Positions 44,586-63,160 of a stretch of DNA of 64,000 bases are shown here, piece after piece (within the stretch, counting starts at the first letter, position 1; each line of letters starts with the position of its first letter). Below the pieces are notes generated by a model. It saw only the letters and a program-made list of their open reading frames with translations, made no database searches and was not told where the DNA came from. This stretch comes from Clostridium sp. DL-VIII. GTDB lineage: Bacteria > Bacillota > Clostridia > Clostridiales > Clostridiaceae. The position numbers were made by a program, and so were the translations under genes. The DNA lies in the NCBI RefSeq assembly GCF_000230835.1, contig NZ_CM001240.1:2488501-2552500 (forward strand), given 5' to 3'.

Positions 44586-45332
44586 TTGATATATGATAGT
44601 GTATACATAAAAGAAATTCGTCTCAGGAAAGAAATTTATAAAGAAGATAGCTATATTAATAAGTTACCTGTAGTTAATAATTTAGAGAGATTAGCTTTAT
44701 CAAGTAATGTAAGCTTTTTTGTTGGGGAAAATGGTAGTGGAAAATCAACATTATTAGAAGCTATTGCAGTTAACAGTGGATTTAATGCAGAAGGAGGAAC
44801 TAGAAATTTTTGCTTTTCATCAAGAGAAACGCATTCTGATTTATATAAGTACATTACAGTAGTGAAAAGTGTGAAGCGACCTAATGATGGATTTTTCCTA
44901 AGAGCAGAAAGTTTTTATAATGTGGCTACGGAAATAGAAAGGCTTGATGTAGGAAGTTCTAGAGGAAATCCTGTCATAAACAGTTATGGGGGGACATCGT
45001 TACATAAGATGTCCCATGGTGAAAGTTTTATTACACTCATGACTAATCGTTTTAGTGGAAATGGGTTATATATTTTAGATGAACCAGAAGCGGCATTATC
45101 ACCATTAAAGCAAATGGCTATGCTTAGTATAATTAATGAACTTGTAAAGAAAAAATCCCAGTTTATTATTGCAACTCATTCACCTATATTAATGGCATAC
45201 CCAGATGCAGATATATTTGTGATAGATGATGATGGAATTAGAAAAACTCCTTATAAAAAGACAGATAATTATATGATAACAAGAAGATTTTTAGAGAATC
45301 CTGAAAAAATGATAGATTATTTGTTTGAATAG
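44586..45332 (+). CDS. AAA/ABC-type predicted ATPase (COG3910-like)
   Basis: 248 residues. Walker A is FVGENGSGKSTLLEAIA at about 45-55, the signature-like MSHGESF near 142, Walker B LYILDEPEAALSP, and the H-loop IIATHSP. The whole protein is a compact ABC-type nucleotidase without membrane parts, as in COG3910 single-gene ATPases of unknown role. The start is TTG 44586 with AAGAGGTG at good spacing; the ATG four bases earlier is out of frame and stops after four codons. Confidence 0.8.
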   Translation: MIYDSVYIKEIRLRKEIYKEDSYINKLPVVNNLERLALSSNVSFFVGENGSGKSTLLEAIAVNSGFNAEGGTRNFCFSSRETHSDLYKYITVVKSVKRPNDGFFLRAESFYNVATEIERLDVGSSRGNPVINSYGGTSLHKMSHGESFITLMTNRFSGNGLYILDEPEAALSPLKQMAMLSIINELVKKKSQFIIATHSPILMAYPDADIFVIDDDGIRKTPYKKTDNYMITRRFLENPEKMIDYLFE

Positions 45333-48348: not shown

Positions 48349-48475
48349 AAATTCGATAGTGAAATAGGAGAGAGGCAAGGGACGCTTCGCCTCCACCATA
48401 AAATCCAGGACCATTTGTATGTGGCTTAAATAGCTGCTTACAGGTGGTCGTGTTTTTTTATTGCCACGGGGTAGC
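48349..48475 (+). repeat. Structured intergenic repeat, copy R1
   Basis: Begins just after the DUF2334 stop. It contains GCTTCGCCTCCACCATAAAA, then GGACCATTTGTATGTGGCTT, then ACAGGTGGTCGTG and TTTTTTT. The second part folds into a long imperfect hairpin ending in a U-run, a terminator. A further tail (TTGCCACGGGGTAGC) is shared with copy R3. The first hairpin arm is more diverged here than in other copies. Confidence 0.8.
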
Positions 48476-48649
48476 GTAACAATTAAACCCTCGAAAAGCT
48501 AAAAATCTACAATTTGAATTTAATTTGGGTACTTATTATCTGAAAATATTATTATCTTTCTTTGTGATATTTTATTTTTTATGATCTGGATAACATGTCG
48601 AATATAAATTTGCTAAGTTATTTTCCTTACAAACTAATTCAGTAAATAC

Positions 48650-48706: not shown

Positions 48707-48987
48707 TAGCAATAGATCAATCATGCTATATTATTAGTTCTAAAATAGATTAAGAGATATAAAGAATGGCAATGATATTTATATATCTATATTTTTATAA
48801 ATATAGGATAATTGTACTAAAAATGGAAAGTATTTTGGCGCAGTAATAATTTTAGAATATTGCGATTAATTATAGCAATATATACCTAATTGAAAATTCT
48901 ATAATTGTGAATATATGAATAATGAATTGACAGGTAATCTTATGATATACTGTATATAGATATTTGTTAATAGGATGGTGGAGTAAA

Positions 48988-50127
48988 TTGAAAGAAGATG
49001 AATTTAATAGTTATATATATGGATATGCAAATGTTCAGCAGTATAAAACAGATGTTGCTTTTAAGACATTAGTTGAAGGTGTTAAAGATAATTTGTATAT
49101 TATACCGGATTTTCAAAGGGTTTACAAGTGGACGGATGGTCAGGTTGAAAATTTAGCAGTATCACTTATAAGAGGAATGCCAATTCCGCCAATATATGTT
49201 TATAGAAATGAAATGAATCAGCTTGAAATACTAGATGGACAGCAGCGTATTATAAGCATGGTTTTATATTATATGGGAAAATATACAGAAAAAATACGTA
49301 ATAATTATATTGATTTAAAAATAGATAATACTCCTAATGCATCTTTATTTGATTGTTTAAAGAAAATAAACTTAATAGATAAAAAATATGAGATGAAATA
49401 CTATGAAATTATAAATGGAGAAGAAATGGAAAAAAATGTTGATATTACGTATGAAACACTGCCTATAAATATAAGAAGAAAACTAGATTACACAAATATT
49501 ACTGTTATAGAAATTATTATTGAGAATAAGGAATTGCGTAATCGATATTTATACAAAATATTTGCAAATTTAAATTCGGGAGGTATACCATTAACACCAC
49601 AAGAATTAAGAAATGGTATCTATGGATGTGAATTTTATAAAATGCTTTCAGAAGTTAATGAATCTAATGAAAGATGGAAGGAACTGTTTGGCAATGAAAC
49701 TGACAGTAGTAGAAATATGGAACGTTTATTAACCTTCTGTGCTTATAAATATTATATAAAATTTGAAGATGATAAATTTACTATTGATAATTATAAGAAT
49801 ATGAATAAATTATTAAACGATTTTTCAGAAGAAGCAGTTAAATTTGATGATGCGAAGATTGATGAATATAAAAAAGATATTGAAAATTTTATTAGTTTAC
49901 TAAAAGGAAAGATTCCAAAACAATTGCTAAAAACAGCTTTATTAGAAATTTTATTTACAGTAACAAACAAAACAAATTGCCAAGTAAGTATCACTAAAGA
50001 GTTTTATGATAATATATCAAAGATTAATGAATATAGTAAAACAATTAAAACAGGAAATAGAACAAAATCAGCTATAGAAAGCAAATTAGAGGCGGTATAC
50101 AATGAAATACGCAAGTTTATTGAATAA
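48988..50127 (+). CDS. DUF262 protein (GmrSD/ParB-Srx-like) of a three-gene defence operon
   Basis: 379 residues. The DUF262 core is clear: IIPDFQRVYKW at residues 38-48, GMPIPPIYVY, and LDGQQRIISM at 82-91 (the DGQQR NTP-binding or nuclease motif of GmrS), then FANLNSGGIPLTPQELRNG. The C-terminal part is helical and lacks the DUF1524 HNH domain that GmrSD proteins carry in the same chain or partner. Start: TTG 48988 behind GGTGGAG. It overlaps the ATPase gene by 26 bases. DUF262 domains read or cut modified DNA; with the ATPase and HNH proteins downstream this is a likely anti-phage system. Confidence 0.85.
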   Translation: MKEDEFNSYIYGYANVQQYKTDVAFKTLVEGVKDNLYIIPDFQRVYKWTDGQVENLAVSLIRGMPIPPIYVYRNEMNQLEILDGQQRIISMVLYYMGKYTEKIRNNYIDLKIDNTPNASLFDCLKKINLIDKKYEMKYYEIINGEEMEKNVDITYETLPINIRRKLDYTNITVIEIIIENKELRNRYLYKIFANLNSGGIPLTPQELRNGIYGCEFYKMLSEVNESNERWKELFGNETDSSRNMERLLTFCAYKYYIKFEDDKFTIDNYKNMNKLLNDFSEEAVKFDDAKIDEYKKDIENFISLLKGKIPKQLLKTALLEILFTVTNKTNCQVSITKEFYDNISKINEYSKTIKTGNRTKSAIESKLEAVYNEIRKFIE

Positions 50128-51034
50128 AGTTATAAAAATAATGGAGGACTCTGGTAATAAGAATTGGATTATTATTGGAGACAATTCTATTGGAAAGTCT
50201 GAAGTGCTTAGAGGATATGTGACAAAAAATAAAGAGGCTTATTATATAGACTCTGTAAATCGTGGATTTGACATAAGAAAAGTGATTTTACAGGATATTG
50301 AATCTTTCAGTATTACCAGTAGGCAAATTATAGATACAAGAATAAAAGATGAATTTTATAACTTGACTGATAGCTTTGGAGGAAATGATCATATAGAAAG
50401 ATTGTATCCCTTGTATAAAGATAAATTAAAAAGTTTATTTAAAAATTATCTTGATGTAGATTTTAGCATTGAAAGAGAAGGATATGAGGAAGGATATGGA
50501 GAAGGTCCACTAATATGTAAAATAGATAATATTAAAGCTGAATTATCTAGTGGTTATCAGGCACTTGCTCGTATATTTTCAGAACTTATATTTTACAAGG
50601 ACATTATTAAAGAAAAAGGAATTATTGTTATTGATGAAATTGATGAGTTTTTGTCACCTAAAAATTCAGCGAATATATTAAATTTCTTAATTAGTGAATT
50701 TCCAGGTAATAACTTTATTGTAAGTACACATTCAGGAGATTTAATTGCTAATACTAATGCTGCAAGTATCATTGCGTTGGAAAAAGAAAATTTTAGTATT
50801 TTAGATAGCAATGACTTTACTACATTGACAGAAGTAAATACTCTATTTCATAAGCTGTTTAATAACCAAGAAAGAGAGAAAGATCATTTAGTAGATGATA
50901 AATTACAAAGATTATTTGATTTAAAGATAATTGGAAAATGGACAGAGGAAGAGGAGATTGAATTTAGCAATATAGACTTTAATAACCTTACATCTGTACA
51001 AAAGTTGATTCATAAGCAGATTGAGGAGTGGTAA
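50102..51034 (+). CDS. ABC/AAA-type ATPase of the DUF262 defence operon (PtuA-like)
   Basis: 310 residues. Walker A is IIIGDNSIGKSEV at 23-35. A signature-like LSSGYQAL at 148-155, Walker B GIIVIDEIDEFLSP at 173-186 and the H-loop FIVSTHSGDLI complete an SMC/OLD-type nucleotidase. A helical insertion lies between Walker A and the signature. An ATPase next to an HNH nuclease is the Septu (PtuA-PtuB) plan, though this ATPase is shorter than PtuA. The stop is five bases before the HNH start. Role inferred: nucleotide-dependent gating of the nuclease. Confidence 0.82.
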   Translation: MKYASLLNKVIKIMEDSGNKNWIIIGDNSIGKSEVLRGYVTKNKEAYYIDSVNRGFDIRKVILQDIESFSITSRQIIDTRIKDEFYNLTDSFGGNDHIERLYPLYKDKLKSLFKNYLDVDFSIEREGYEEGYGEGPLICKIDNIKAELSSGYQALARIFSELIFYKDIIKEKGIIVIDEIDEFLSPKNSANILNFLISEFPGNNFIVSTHSGDLIANTNAASIIALEKENFSILDSNDFTTLTEVNTLFHKLFNNQEREKDHLVDDKLQRLFDLKIIGKWTEEEEIEFSNIDFNNLTSVQKLIHKQIEEW

Positions 51035-51039
51035 TTGGT

Positions 51040-51837
51040 ATGAGCAGTGTTACAATAATTGATATACCATCATTTACACCTCAATATGAATCTGATAAGA
51101 GTTACGGTTATAAAGATGCAAATGGAAAGAGGTTGCTGGAACTTCTATATAAAACTACTAATGGGTATTGTATGTATTGCTATTGTAAAATCGATATAGA
51201 TAATAAGAAATTTGGTCAGTTAGAACATGCAATTGAAAAAGATTTTTGTAAAAAAAAATTATCTGAATGCGTTCCTAATATAGGGCTTGCTTGTCCTAAA
51301 TGCAATCAGTCTTTTAAGAATTCGGGTTTGACCAAAAAGGACAAAAATAATAAGATAAAGGGTATATTTACTCATAAGCAAATAGAAAATTTTGAAAAAA
51401 CAGTTTGTAGCAATTCTGTGAAATGCACAAAAGAATGCAGGGAATATAAAATAATTAAAAGGGTTTATTTGCAAAAAAGAAATATTATATTACAGCCTAT
51501 GGGAGTAACTGTAAAAGGACATTCTTATAATATTCAATATAATTTGCTTACATTAACATTTGAACCTAGTGATACGGTAGCGTATACTGATGCTGAGAAA
51601 GAATTTATAAGAGAACATATTTCAAAGTTTAATTTAAATGATTCTATATATAGGACTCGTGAAATACTTAAATTTTGTGAAGATATAATAAATGGAGATA
51701 GATATTTAAGAAAAGGAAAATATAATAATTATATTGTAGATTTGTTTGTAGATAAGCTTGAAAATTTGGATGAAGAAGCAAGGATAAAATTATGTAGTAC
51801 TATTTATATGATAGGAAAGAGTAAGAGAATTATATAG
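51040..51837 (+). CDS. HNH nuclease of the DUF262 defence operon (PtuB/TIGR02646-like)
   Basis: 265 residues. The HNH fold is GYCMYCYCK (Cys44, Cys47), QLEHAIEKDF (catalytic His63), NIGLACPKCNQSFKN (Asn80, Cys85, Cys88, Asn89), followed by a helical C-terminus. The EH...NxxLxCxxCN pattern is that of PtuB and retron-type HNH proteins. A GTG at 51028 is in frame, but the GAGGAG ribosome site overlaps it; the ATG at 51040 is chosen. It is the last gene of the operon; repeat R2 follows within 25 bases. It is probably the effector that cuts DNA or tRNA. Confidence 0.85.
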   Translation: MSSVTIIDIPSFTPQYESDKSYGYKDANGKRLLELLYKTTNGYCMYCYCKIDIDNKKFGQLEHAIEKDFCKKKLSECVPNIGLACPKCNQSFKNSGLTKKDKNNKIKGIFTHKQIENFEKTVCSNSVKCTKECREYKIIKRVYLQKRNIILQPMGVTVKGHSYNIQYNLLTLTFEPSDTVAYTDAEKEFIREHISKFNLNDSIYRTREILKFCEDIINGDRYLRKGKYNNYIVDLFVDKLENLDEEARIKLCSTIYMIGKSKRII

Positions 51838-51860: not shown

Positions 51861-51953
51861 AAGTGGTGGATTTCATGCCTCCACCATGAAACCTACGACC
51901 ATTTGTATGTGACTTAAATAGTTGCTTACAGGTGGGCGTGGGTTTTTATTATT
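51861..51953 (+). repeat. Structured intergenic repeat, copy R2
   Basis: GTGGTGGA and TCCACCA-type arms form the first short hairpin (AAGTGGTGGATTTC, GCCTCCACCAT). The second hairpin is CCTACGACCATTTGTATGTG to GGTGGGCGTGGG, then TTTTTATT. Relative to R3, both outer arms differ at paired positions (CCTACG with CGTGGG), and the inner pair is GACT/AGTT instead of GGCT/AGCT. Confidence 0.85.
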
Positions 51954-52053
51954 ACAGTATCTTAAACAATCGTGAAATTTAATTAGAATAGAAACATTTT
52001 AAAATAATACTAGGTCATGATATTAAGATATTATTGGTTAAGAGGTTGATTGG

Positions 52054-55014
52054 ATGCAATATGAAGAACTGTATCAAATGTATATTACTTTAAAAAAAGA
52101 AAATGAATTTTTGAAAAATGAAAATAAGAAAATGCGGGAGTTGCTTGAAAGTCATGGCGGAATAGTTAATACCGAAGATGAGATTATAATTAATGAGGAA
52201 ATGGAGAGTTATGGAGATAAAAGACCGATTATAACCGAAGATAATCAAATAGGTAAAGTGAGTAATATGAGTACACCAAAAGAAAAAATACATTTATTTA
52301 TGTCATTGTTTAAAGGGCGGGAAGATGTTTATGCAAAACGCTTTGAAAAGAAAGATGGAAAAGGTGGATATTCTCCAGTATGTATGAATGAATGGAAAAA
52401 GTGGATTTGTAATAAACCTAAAATTAAATGTTCACAATGTGAAAATAGAAAATATTCGGTGTTGGGCTTTGATGAGATAAATAGACATTTGCGGGGAATA
52501 GAAGTTTTAGGAATATATCCGATGTTAGAAGACGAAAAATGCTTTTTTCTTGCCATTGATTTTGATGATGATGGATGGGAAAAGGATGTTACTATTATAA
52601 GAGAAGTATGTAAGGGAAAAAGCATTCCTTTTGCGGTAGAACGGTCAAGATCAGGAAATGGAGCTCATGTATGGTTTTTCTTTAATGAAAGTATAAGCGC
52701 AGTAATAGCTAGGAAATTTGGAACAGCTATTTTGACTTATGCAATGGATAAAAGGCATGAGATAAAATTTAAATCTTATGATAGATTATTTCCAAATCAG
52801 GATACCATGCCCAATGGTGGACTAGGTAATCTAATTGCATTACCTTTGCAAAAAAATTCCAGGGGAAATAATAACAGTGTATTTATTGATGAAAATTTTG
52901 AGCCGTATAGTGACCAATGGCTTTTTTTATCTACAATTAATAAGATATCTAAAGAAGATTTAGATTTATATATCATAAAATTGGCAGTGACAAATGAATT
53001 AGGCGAATTAATGATGATTAAAAATGAAACTGTTAAGCCATGGGATGAAGTAAAGGAAGAACCTAAATTAATTTCATCGGATTTTCCAGATACGGTCAAT
53101 ATAGTAATAGCTAATATGCTTTATATTCATAAAAAAGGATTTTCCAATAAAGTTTTAAATAAAATTAAAAGATTAGCTGCATTTAAGAATCAGGAATTCT
53201 ACAAGTTTCAAGCAATGAGGATGAATACATTTAATAAACCACGTATTATTTCATTGTCAGATGAAACAGAGGATTATTTATGTATTCCAAGAGGATGTGA
53301 AGATGAACTTCTGAGTTTATTAAGTGAAAATAATGCATATATAAGTTTAGATAATAAAACACATCCAGGTAAAGAAATAAAGGTCCAATTTAATGGAGAA
53401 CTTAGAAATGAACAGGTGCAAGCAGTAGAAGAAATGTTGAAATATAATAATGGAGTTTTATCAGCTACTACAGCTTTTGGTAAAACTGTTATTGGAGCCA
53501 ATTTGATTTCAGAGAAGAAAGTTAATACGTTAATAATAGTACATACAAAACAATTATTAGAACAATGGATCAAGAGATTGAATGAATTTTTAATTATTGA
53601 TGAAGTTGTAATTGTTGAGGATAATAAGAAAAGAGGAAGAAATAAAATTATTAATGTTATTGGCCAATTAGGCGGTGGAAAGAATAGATTAAGTGGAATA
53701 ATTGATATCGCTACAATGCAATCACTAGTTAGAGAAGGTGAAGTTAAAGATTTAGTTAAAGATTATGGAATGGTTATAGTTGATGAATGTCATCATGTTT
53801 CAGCTTTTAGTCTAGAACAAATTTTAAAGAATGTTTATGCTAAATATGTATATGGGCTAACTGCAACGCCAACACGAAAGGATGGGCATGATCCTATTAT
53901 TTTTATGCAATGTGGTCCAATTAGATATAAAGTTGATCCGATAAAGCAAGCTCTAAAGCGACCATTTGAGCATTATGTCATTCCTAGGTTTACACGATTT
54001 AACATAAAAAATAATATAGAAAAAAATCAGTTAACAATAACAGATATTTATTCACAAATAGTTGAAAGTCATATTAGAAATAAAATGATTGTTGAGGATG
54101 TAATTGAATGTGTAAAAAATGGGCGGAATCCTATCGTTTTAACAGAAAGAACTGCTCATGTTAAAATGCTTTCTGAAGAATTAGAAAAACAACTGTTAGA
54201 TGTGATAACGCTAACTGGGGCAATGGCAGATAGAGAGAAGAAAAAGGAAATGGAAAGACTTCAAGCGATACCAAGAGAAAGAAATTTTGTAATAGTTGCA
54301 ACTGGTAAGTTTATAGGGGAAGGTTTTGATGAGTCAAGACTTGATAGTCTTTTTTTAGCTATGCCAATATCATGGAAAGGTACATTGCAACAATATGTAG
54401 GAAGACTGCATAGGTTATATGAAAATAAATATGAAGTTCAAGTATATGATTATGTAGATATGCATGTTGGGGTTTTAGAGAAAATGTATCAAAAAAGATT
54501 AAAAGGGTATTCAGCTATAGGATATTGGATTAAAAGTGATACTAAATTGTCGGAGAGCATTAACTCAATTTATAATAGTAAAAATTTCTTAACGATATAT
54601 AACAATGATGTTTTATCTGCTAAAAAAGAATTAGTTATATCGAGTCCTTTTATTAGCAAGATAAGTTTAACAAGATTATTGGAGAATTTTAAAGCGTTAT
54701 TAAATACAAGTGTAAAAATTAAGATAATCACTAGACCAGAAGAAGATTTTAATGGTGCTTCTAGAGAAAATATGAAAGCTATATTTGAAGTTTTATCAAA
54801 GGTTGGAATTGATTTAGTATTTAAAACTAATTTGTATAAAAAGTTTGCTGTGATTGATAATAAGGTAGTTTGGTATGGTGGTATAAATTTATTAAGTTAT
54901 AGCAATTCAGAAGATAGTATAATGAGGTTAGACAATGTTGAGATAGCAAATGAAATACTAAAAGATGATGATGATGAAGAAAATGAGATACCTATTCAGG
55001 AAAGATTTATATGA
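52054..55014 (+). CDS. TOTE-type primase-helicase-PLD fusion protein
   Basis: 986 residues. A coiled coil at 13-31 (LKKENEFLKNENKKMRELLE) comes first. Residues about 75-310 form an archaeo-eukaryotic primase domain of the TOTE conflict-system type, with IKCSQC, FLAIDFDDDGW (DxD at 169-171), GNGAHVWFFF and GGLGNLIALPLQKNSRG. Residues about 445-840 form a superfamily 2 helicase: SATTAFGKTVIG, VIVDECHHVS, GLTATPTRKDG, YVGRLHRLY. The end resembles a phospholipase-D nuclease (KKFAVIDNKVVWYGGINLL), but the usual histidine is lysine or tyrosine. AAGAGG precedes the ATG. Known relatives are predicted to act against invading DNA. It lies between repeats R2 and R3. Confidence 0.85.
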   Translation: MQYEELYQMYITLKKENEFLKNENKKMRELLESHGGIVNTEDEIIINEEMESYGDKRPIITEDNQIGKVSNMSTPKEKIHLFMSLFKGREDVYAKRFEKKDGKGGYSPVCMNEWKKWICNKPKIKCSQCENRKYSVLGFDEINRHLRGIEVLGIYPMLEDEKCFFLAIDFDDDGWEKDVTIIREVCKGKSIPFAVERSRSGNGAHVWFFFNESISAVIARKFGTAILTYAMDKRHEIKFKSYDRLFPNQDTMPNGGLGNLIALPLQKNSRGNNNSVFIDENFEPYSDQWLFLSTINKISKEDLDLYIIKLAVTNELGELMMIKNETVKPWDEVKEEPKLISSDFPDTVNIVIANMLYIHKKGFSNKVLNKIKRLAAFKNQEFYKFQAMRMNTFNKPRIISLSDETEDYLCIPRGCEDELLSLLSENNAYISLDNKTHPGKEIKVQFNGELRNEQVQAVEEMLKYNNGVLSATTAFGKTVIGANLISEKKVNTLIIVHTKQLLEQWIKRLNEFLIIDEVVIVEDNKKRGRNKIINVIGQLGGGKNRLSGIIDIATMQSLVREGEVKDLVKDYGMVIVDECHHVSAFSLEQILKNVYAKYVYGLTATPTRKDGHDPIIFMQCGPIRYKVDPIKQALKRPFEHYVIPRFTRFNIKNNIEKNQLTITDIYSQIVESHIRNKMIVEDVIECVKNGRNPIVLTERTAHVKMLSEELEKQLLDVITLTGAMADREKKKEMERLQAIPRERNFVIVATGKFIGEGFDESRLDSLFLAMPISWKGTLQQYVGRLHRLYENKYEVQVYDYVDMHVGVLEKMYQKRLKGYSAIGYWIKSDTKLSESINSIYNSKNFLTIYNNDVLSAKKELVISSPFISKISLTRLLENFKALLNTSVKIKIITRPEEDFNGASRENMKAIFEVLSKVGIDLVFKTNLYKKFAVIDNKVVWYGGINLLSYSNSEDSIMRLDNVEIANEILKDDDDEENEIPIQERFI

Positions 55015-55052: not shown

Positions 55053-55154
55053 AGTAGAAAAGGATTGCCATTTAACACGGTGGAATGGGAGAACGAGGCA
55101 GATATAGAGACTGAAATACTATATGAAGATAGTGTTCCTTATAATATTGGTTAG
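55053..55154 (+). pseudogene. DUF2442 C-terminal remnant
   Basis: A startless frame encodes GLPFNTVEWENEADIETEIL and YEDSVPYNIG. DUF2442 proteins end in xVxWPNxADIxPExLYE, a close match. These genes usually follow a DUF4160 gene as small toxin-antitoxin-like pairs. The rest of the pair is deleted, directly after the helicase gene and before repeat R3. Confidence 0.6.
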
Positions 55155-55268
55155 TGGTGGATTTTAAAGGTCATGCTTCGCCTCCACCATAAAATCCACG
55201 ACCAATTTGTATGTGGCTTGAATAGCTACTTACAGGTGGTCGTGTTTTTTGTTGTCACGGGTAGCTCC
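55152..55268. repeat. Structured intergenic repeat, copy R3
   Basis: The clearest copy. GTGGTGGA and TCCACCAT form hairpin 1, with GGTCATGCTTCGCC in its loop. CCACGACCA...GGTGGTCGTG forms hairpin 2, with an inner stem TGTATGTGGCT/AGCTACTTACA, then TTTTTT. AAAAT on the 5' side gives a U-run on the other strand, so it can terminate the convergent helicase and NUDIX/ispG transcripts in both directions. Confidence 0.88.
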
Positions 55269-55310
55269 ACCAGTTATATAAAACTAGTAAGATTATTTTA
55301 GCTTAGCATG

Positions 55311-58431: not shown

Positions 58432-58516
58432 TAGTGGTGGATTTTAAAGGTCACGCTTCGCCTCCACCATGAAACCCACGAAAATCTAATTTTTGGATTT
58501 TCGTGGGTCTTTCTTG
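58432..58516 (+). repeat. Structured intergenic repeat, copy R4 (short second hairpin)
   Basis: Hairpin 1 is the same as in R3 (GTGGTGGATTTTAAAGGTCA, CGCTTCGCCTCCACCATGAA). Hairpin 2 is different and cleaner: ACCCACGAAAATC against GATTTTCGTGGGT, then CTTTCTT. The two-hairpin plan is kept while the second hairpin's sequence is replaced. Confidence 0.85.
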
Positions 58517-63061: not shown

Positions 63062-63160
63062 TATAGTGGATTTCAAAGGTCACACTTCGTCTCCACCATA
63101 AAAAGCACGACCATTTGCATGTAGCTTGAATAGCTGCGTGCAGGTGGTCGTGCTTTGTAC
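63062..63160 (-). repeat. Structured intergenic repeat, copy R5
   Basis: GTGGATTTCAAAGGTCACAC and CTTCGTCTCCACCAT make hairpin 1. AGCACGACCA...TGGTCGTGCT makes hairpin 2, with an inner stem TGCATGTAGCT/AGCTGCGTGCA paired throughout if G-U is allowed. The outer pair GC/GC replaces CC/GT of R3, a compensatory change. On the minus strand TTTTTATGG follows the stem, so here it can terminate the sugar-binding protein gene. Confidence 0.85.

Follow-up and report, generated by a model that had tools for sequence, protein, structure and literature searches.

A three-gene DUF262-ATPase-HNH operon of Clostridium sp. DL-VIII as a very probable chromosomal copy of the Menshen anti-phage system

Does a DUF262 gene that is tightly packed with genes for a small ABC-type ATPase and an HNH protein represent a new defence system, or one that has already been described? 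This question is raised by a locus of Clostridium sp. DL-VIII, where we analysed a window of 64,000 nucleotides, to whose positions all plain coordinates refer. The operon, nsnA-nsnB-nsnC, occupies positions 48988-51837 on the plus strand of a genome that is 6.48 Mb in size and forms one contig. A sequence-only reading had treated it as a candidate and possibly unnamed defence system. We find that all three components match PADLOC-DB models of one described system (NsnA, NsnB and NsnC), and that the operon very probably represents the anti-phage system Menshen (NsnABC) on the chromosome. Menshen is said to have been described by Millman et al. in 2022; the system type is thus not new, and the opening question is closed, in that the proposed architecture exists but is that of a system already described.

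Operon layout and the three proteins

The first gene, nsnA (48988..50127, plus strand), encodes a DUF262/GmrSD_N protein of the ParB/Srx fold with 379 amino acids, counted from the TTG at 48988. Its full open reading frame (ORF; 48964-50127) holds 387 amino acids, and the TTG, which the sequence-only reading also took as the start, corresponds to the start of the homologue P0242 and follows a Shine-Dalgarno-like GGTGGAG, read from the sequence, at 48977..48983 (plus). It overlaps by 26 bases with nsnB (50102..51034, plus), which encodes the small ABC-type ATPase of 310 amino acids, and the stop codon of nsnB is separated by a 5-base gap from the ATG of nsnC (51040..51837, plus), which encodes a predicted PtuB-type HNH nuclease of 265 amino acids. 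The full nsnC frame (51028-51837) holds 269 amino acids, and homologues such as P0001 start at this ATG. The operon is real and intact-looking, and ORFs, Pfam, PADLOC and predicted fold together bear out the three-part composition proposed for it earlier, with ATPase and HNH genes laid out on the plan of Septu.

NsnA matches PF03235 (DUF262) in Pfam above the cut-off (E 5e-31) and carries the motifs PDFQRVYKW and DGQQR, the latter invariant in the NsnA alignment, while its C-terminal half is predicted to be helical. No DUF1524 model was found among the Pfam matches of NsnA, NsnB and NsnC at E 1 or better, in agreement with the earlier description of a DUF262 protein that lacks this partner. 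Against PADLOC-DB NsnA, the match is E 2.3e-43 over 19-386. By sequence alone NsnA found no match in the PDB at E 0.1; its predicted model aligns with residues 1-422 of BrxU, which is the non-nuclease part of that protein. It aligns as well with a chain of a DndBCDE-DndI entry, taken as DndI, over residues 5-431 of that chain; the fold is predicted to be GmrS-like. NsnA shares DUF262 and the invariant DGQQR with the GmrSD/BrxU/SspE/DndI family, but differs in that no DUF1524 is matched and that the nuclease is a PtuB-like protein of its own, partnered by an ATPase. Elsewhere, at G000:C1:1106216-1107847, a 777-amino-acid open frame contains two separate DUF262 matches, which is an unusual double arrangement.

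NsnC matches PADLOC NsnC over the full length, with E 6.1e-101 and 335 bits. In Pfam its HNH match stays under the cut-off (E 0.53); the HNH call is nevertheless accepted because of its invariant residues and its predicted fold. Across the 26 rows that were picked for alignment out of 188 matches, C48-x2-C51, E66-H67, N84 and C89-x2-C92-N93 are invariant (NsnC residues are numbered from 51028). Among these, C48, C51, C89 and C92 are likely to form a zinc site and H67, N84 and N93 the active site, as judged from the HNH pattern. NsnC found no PDB match by sequence alone at E 0.1, and its predicted fold is PtuB-like over residues 13-252 at most; the ten best structure matches in a second look were all chains of PtuAB complexes.

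NsnB is an ABC/SMC-type P-loop protein that matches PF13304 slightly under the Pfam cut-off (E 1.5e-5). Its Walker A (G26DNSxGKS33), signature (L148SxG151), Walker B (D178E179) and H-loop (H210) residues are invariant across 27 aligned rows. The likeness to PtuA is confined to the C-terminal half of PtuA, at about residues 166-290, and the NsnB profile retrieves PtuA-type chains of Septu and retrons with E down to 5.8e-13. Between Walker A and Walker B there are 146 residues in NsnB (K32-D178) versus 273 in PtuA of EcB88 (K43-D316), and solved PtuA chains have 456-552 residues versus the 310 of NsnB. Since PADLOC PtuA profiles span 239-726 positions, some as short as NsnB, the two cannot be separated by size alone. 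Another ABC-type ATPase of the window (AAA_21/AAA_15; 248 amino acids; 44586-45332, plus) stands alone, and no adjoining nuclease partner was noticed.

Menshen, Septu or a new system

The idea of a new, unnamed three-gene system was dropped on account of the PADLOC matches, as three out of three components match models of one described system, the HNH protein with 335 bits over its full length. We regard such novelty as extremely improbable. In a review, Menshen is described with a DUF262 gene without DUF1524, and defence is lost on mutation or deletion of that gene (PMC10952713); the operon agrees with this in its DUF262 protein without DUF1524, and with the PADLOC models in all three components.

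A second candidate is a diverged Septu (PtuAB) with a DUF262 gene as an accidental neighbour outside the system. The adjacent ATPase and HNH genes are shared with Septu and with the PtuAB of type I-A retrons, as are the PtuB-like fold of NsnC and the C-terminal half of PtuA in NsnB. NsnB also matches PtuA models slightly better than the NsnB model, and some PtuA profiles are equally short. The two-gene Septu differs by the absence of the extra DUF262 gene, which here overlaps nsnB and co-occurs with it. A Pfam scan of 16 ORFs gave no reverse transcriptase. Against the accidental neighbour stand the overlap of nsnA and nsnB (26 bases here, 44 in two other genomes, G023 and G028), the co-divergence of the components, the finding that among 195 related genomes none of the trio occurs in strong form without the other two, and the distance of NsnC from PtuB, as it is far nearer PADLOC NsnC (E 6e-101) than the best PtuB model (E 1.4e-5). 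A diverged Septu is judged very unlikely.

Several points weigh against the identification as Menshen. For NsnB, several PtuA models (up to E 6.5e-16) outscore PADLOC NsnB (E 2.6e-13), which is matched at 145-258 only, and the same order of scores and the same partial coverage of the NsnB profile are seen in other loci. NsnA resembles a phage protein family of unassigned function (phrog_2598, E 6.5e-43) and also PD-T4-2_A of PADLOC-DB, and its alignment with BrxU has a root-mean-square deviation of 13.3, that is, the domains agree but their arrangement does not. For NsnC, Foldseek alone gave no match at E 0.001 or better, the best being a PtuAB entry at 2.5e-3. The PADLOC matches were judged by E-value, and the identity is based on these profile matches and the review's description. 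NsnA, NsnB and NsnC are presumably the names of the Menshen genes. Furthermore, in the review the partner is named an 'OLD nuclease' and not an HNH protein (PMC10952713), which is, together with the partial NsnB match that is weaker than the one to PtuA, where the operon differs from Menshen as described.

The trio, which had been read as one unit, co-occurs in homologous loci. Strong NsnA, NsnB and NsnC were found in the same three of the 195 genomes (G000, G023 and G028) and in no others, where for NsnB and NsnA the best 11 or 9 candidates per genome were scored. The search with NsnC gave matches at E <=1e-3 in 10 of the 195; seven of them, weak and partial with E 6e-8 or worse, were left out, as was a fourth genome with a partial NsnA (G114, E 1e-22). 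The order A-B-C is kept in all four loci that were read, namely the window, G023, G028 and G710. In G023 and G028 the neighbours differ from those of the window, while G710 is cut by a contig end: nsnB and nsnC are whole there, and NsnA runs off the contig in its C-terminal part. Pairwise distances in 16 sets, three of them read and 13 assembled by a contig proxy (one with a partial NsnC), are strongly correlated in Mantel tests (r 0.94 for A-B, 0.91 for A-C and 0.92 for B-C; none of 5000 permutations as high). Because the same order recurs in three further loci and the divergence is correlated, the arrangement stands above chance; shared descent alone may also give rise to such co-divergence, which again counts against the identification.

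For a wider view, the best 120 matches to each of NsnC, NsnB and NsnA (of 188, 177 and 686) were compared, with an equal length of the longest contig taken as a proxy for a shared contig. Of the 34 best NsnC matches, 18 presumably share a contig with a listed NsnA or NsnB, and 13 with both. Against a trio that is always complete, at least six presumed contigs have NsnA and NsnB with no NsnC among the matches listed (NsnB/NsnA pairs P0139/P0259, P0144/P0256, P0154/P0262, P0142/P0267, P0200/P0313 and P0226/P0321, on contigs of 564526, 10803, 127170, 24677, 5753 and 7198 nt). These may be variants of Menshen in which the third component is a different one, or an effect of the listing. In further surveys with overlapping samples NsnC was found in 1/398 genomes of the phylum and 3/391 of the class, scoring the best few first-look candidates per genome, and in 3/68 of the genus and 1/22 of another sample, while a search of further genome contigs gave one locus, which is the G710 contig. 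A spread of NsnC on phages or plasmids was not upheld, as neither NsnC nor its relative P0055 had a match in the phage and plasmid collections, and no relative was confirmed in viral contigs.

A proposed division of labour and its substrate

A working scheme may be drawn from what was computed, namely the domains with their intact motifs, the predicted folds that resemble PtuB and GmrS, the conserved gene order and the co-divergence. NsnA, with its GmrS-like predicted ParB/Srx fold and probable nucleoside triphosphate (NTP) binding, would sense either a cue given by infection or some feature of foreign DNA, and its change of state would license NsnB. The latter, as a short PtuA-like ABC ATPase, may dimerise on ATP and couple it to assembly, thereby holding and gating NsnC, and the PtuB-type HNH nuclease would then cut nucleic acid and halt phage growth. 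In this scheme we infer that the proteins form a complex, in which direction control runs, what the trigger and the substrate are, and that this copy acts against phages. That the operon is a Menshen copy working in this way seems fairly probable to us; for the division of labour as such, with NsnA sensing, NsnB coupling ATP and NsnC cutting, our confidence is moderate. The sequence-only reading had suggested that the HNH protein replaces DUF1524 under ATP control; the replacement is reasonable in view of the PtuB-like NsnC and the likeness of NsnA to the non-nuclease part of BrxU, whereas the regulation by ATP stays presumptive.

We lean, again with moderate confidence, towards DNA rather than RNA as the NsnC substrate. 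The related enzymes are reported with both kinds of target. Septu of ATCC 25922 is reported to act on nicked DNA, retron-Eco7 PtuAB depletes tRNA-Tyr and retron-Eco4 is likely without action on tRNA (PMC11555353), while Septu EcB88 cuts the variable loop of tRNA-Tyr in a manner that requires K43 and D316 of PtuA and H75 and N91 of PtuB (PMC13096335). Among the nearest solved folds of NsnC are PtuAB complexes of retron-Eco7/Ec78, which points to a reading in which the same Menshen operon would cut host tRNA and cause abortive infection, with NsnA gating a toxin instead of guiding it to DNA. We hold this to be the less likely reading. More doubtful still is the general form of this idea, which sees HNH-type Menshen as a machine akin to Septu: sensing would be left to a GmrS-like NTP switch as a separate protein that works together with a short PtuA-like ATPase, and infected cells would be killed by tRNA cutting and not by restriction of phage DNA.

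The structural reading, a PtuB-type nuclease with a short PtuA-like ATPase and a GmrS-like switch, is useful in that it connects two enzyme families that have been studied before and opens the trigger and the DNA-or-tRNA target of Menshen to direct tests; it may already be in print.

Neighbouring genes and a dispersed hairpin repeat

Upstream of the operon lie a DUF2334 gene, a TetR gene and a BAAT_C hydrolase gene. Downstream of nsnC, a gene at 52054-55014 (plus) encodes an AEP-TOTE primase/SF2 helicase/PLD protein of 986 amino acids (PF22548, E 9e-103), which is a candidate for a further conflict system adjoining Menshen. No AEP-TOTE-like ORF was seen beside nsnABC in three other loci, as judged by size and sequence in the ORF lists. 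A functional link between nsnABC and this gene was rejected, given the missing counterpart in those loci and the terminator-like hairpin in between.

This hairpin, at 51877..51954 (plus), has a T-run and is a copy, placed at 51875-51957, of a repeat family (D1); the stretch 51865-51950 folds with -40.4 kcal/mol (z -6.6), and it is the probable 3' end of the operon. A 74-nt direct repeat stands ahead of nsnA and follows both nsnC and the TOTE gene; it folds into a long hairpin, and the element as a whole measures 75-100 nt. The first copy (48377-48479, plus) lies 3' of the DUF2334 gene, between it and nsnA and outside the system, and further copies are found at 55153-55269, after the TOTE gene, and at 63062-63160 (both plus). 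The copies at 48.4, 51.9 and 55.2 kb thus bound nsnABC and the TOTE gene. The repeat is matched 12 times in this genome, with one short match among them, and is found in 21 of 68 genomes of the genus, this one included. In 25 copies chosen for alignment, 96.6% of cells retain the pairing, and at 7 of 20 pairs both partners have changed, in a single copy each time (0/500 shuffles as high). Rfam holds no family for the copies at 44-57 kb, and no copy was found in the phage or plasmid collections.

The fetched stretches contain 67 full copies, of which the 65 with an ORF of at least 90 amino acids on both sides were counted. We read the repeat as a dispersed, terminator-like 3' element and not as a cassette boundary, because 63 of these 65 follow the end of a codirectional gene; the next gene has the same direction in 31 of 65, as in a coin-flip. 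On the same two counts, an integron-like defence cassette delimited by repeats, as suggested by the copies around nsnABC and the TOTE gene and by two more around a McrBC region, was rejected. Some copies occupy the same position within a row of ORFs of similar size in different genomes, for example after a 414-amino-acid ORF in G000, G034 and G065. In the same genome as the operon, McrBC genes, a gene for a 242-amino-acid protein of unknown type and a DUF6119 gene lie between two copies (L047:7177-12005, minus strand). In addition, the repeat's first part, about positions 3-57 of the model, stands on its own at 58433-58486 (plus) and as partial copies in L079-L118, and among the 26 countable copies that are not full, 22 lie 3' of a codirectional gene, 20 of these being followed by a codirectional gene as well.
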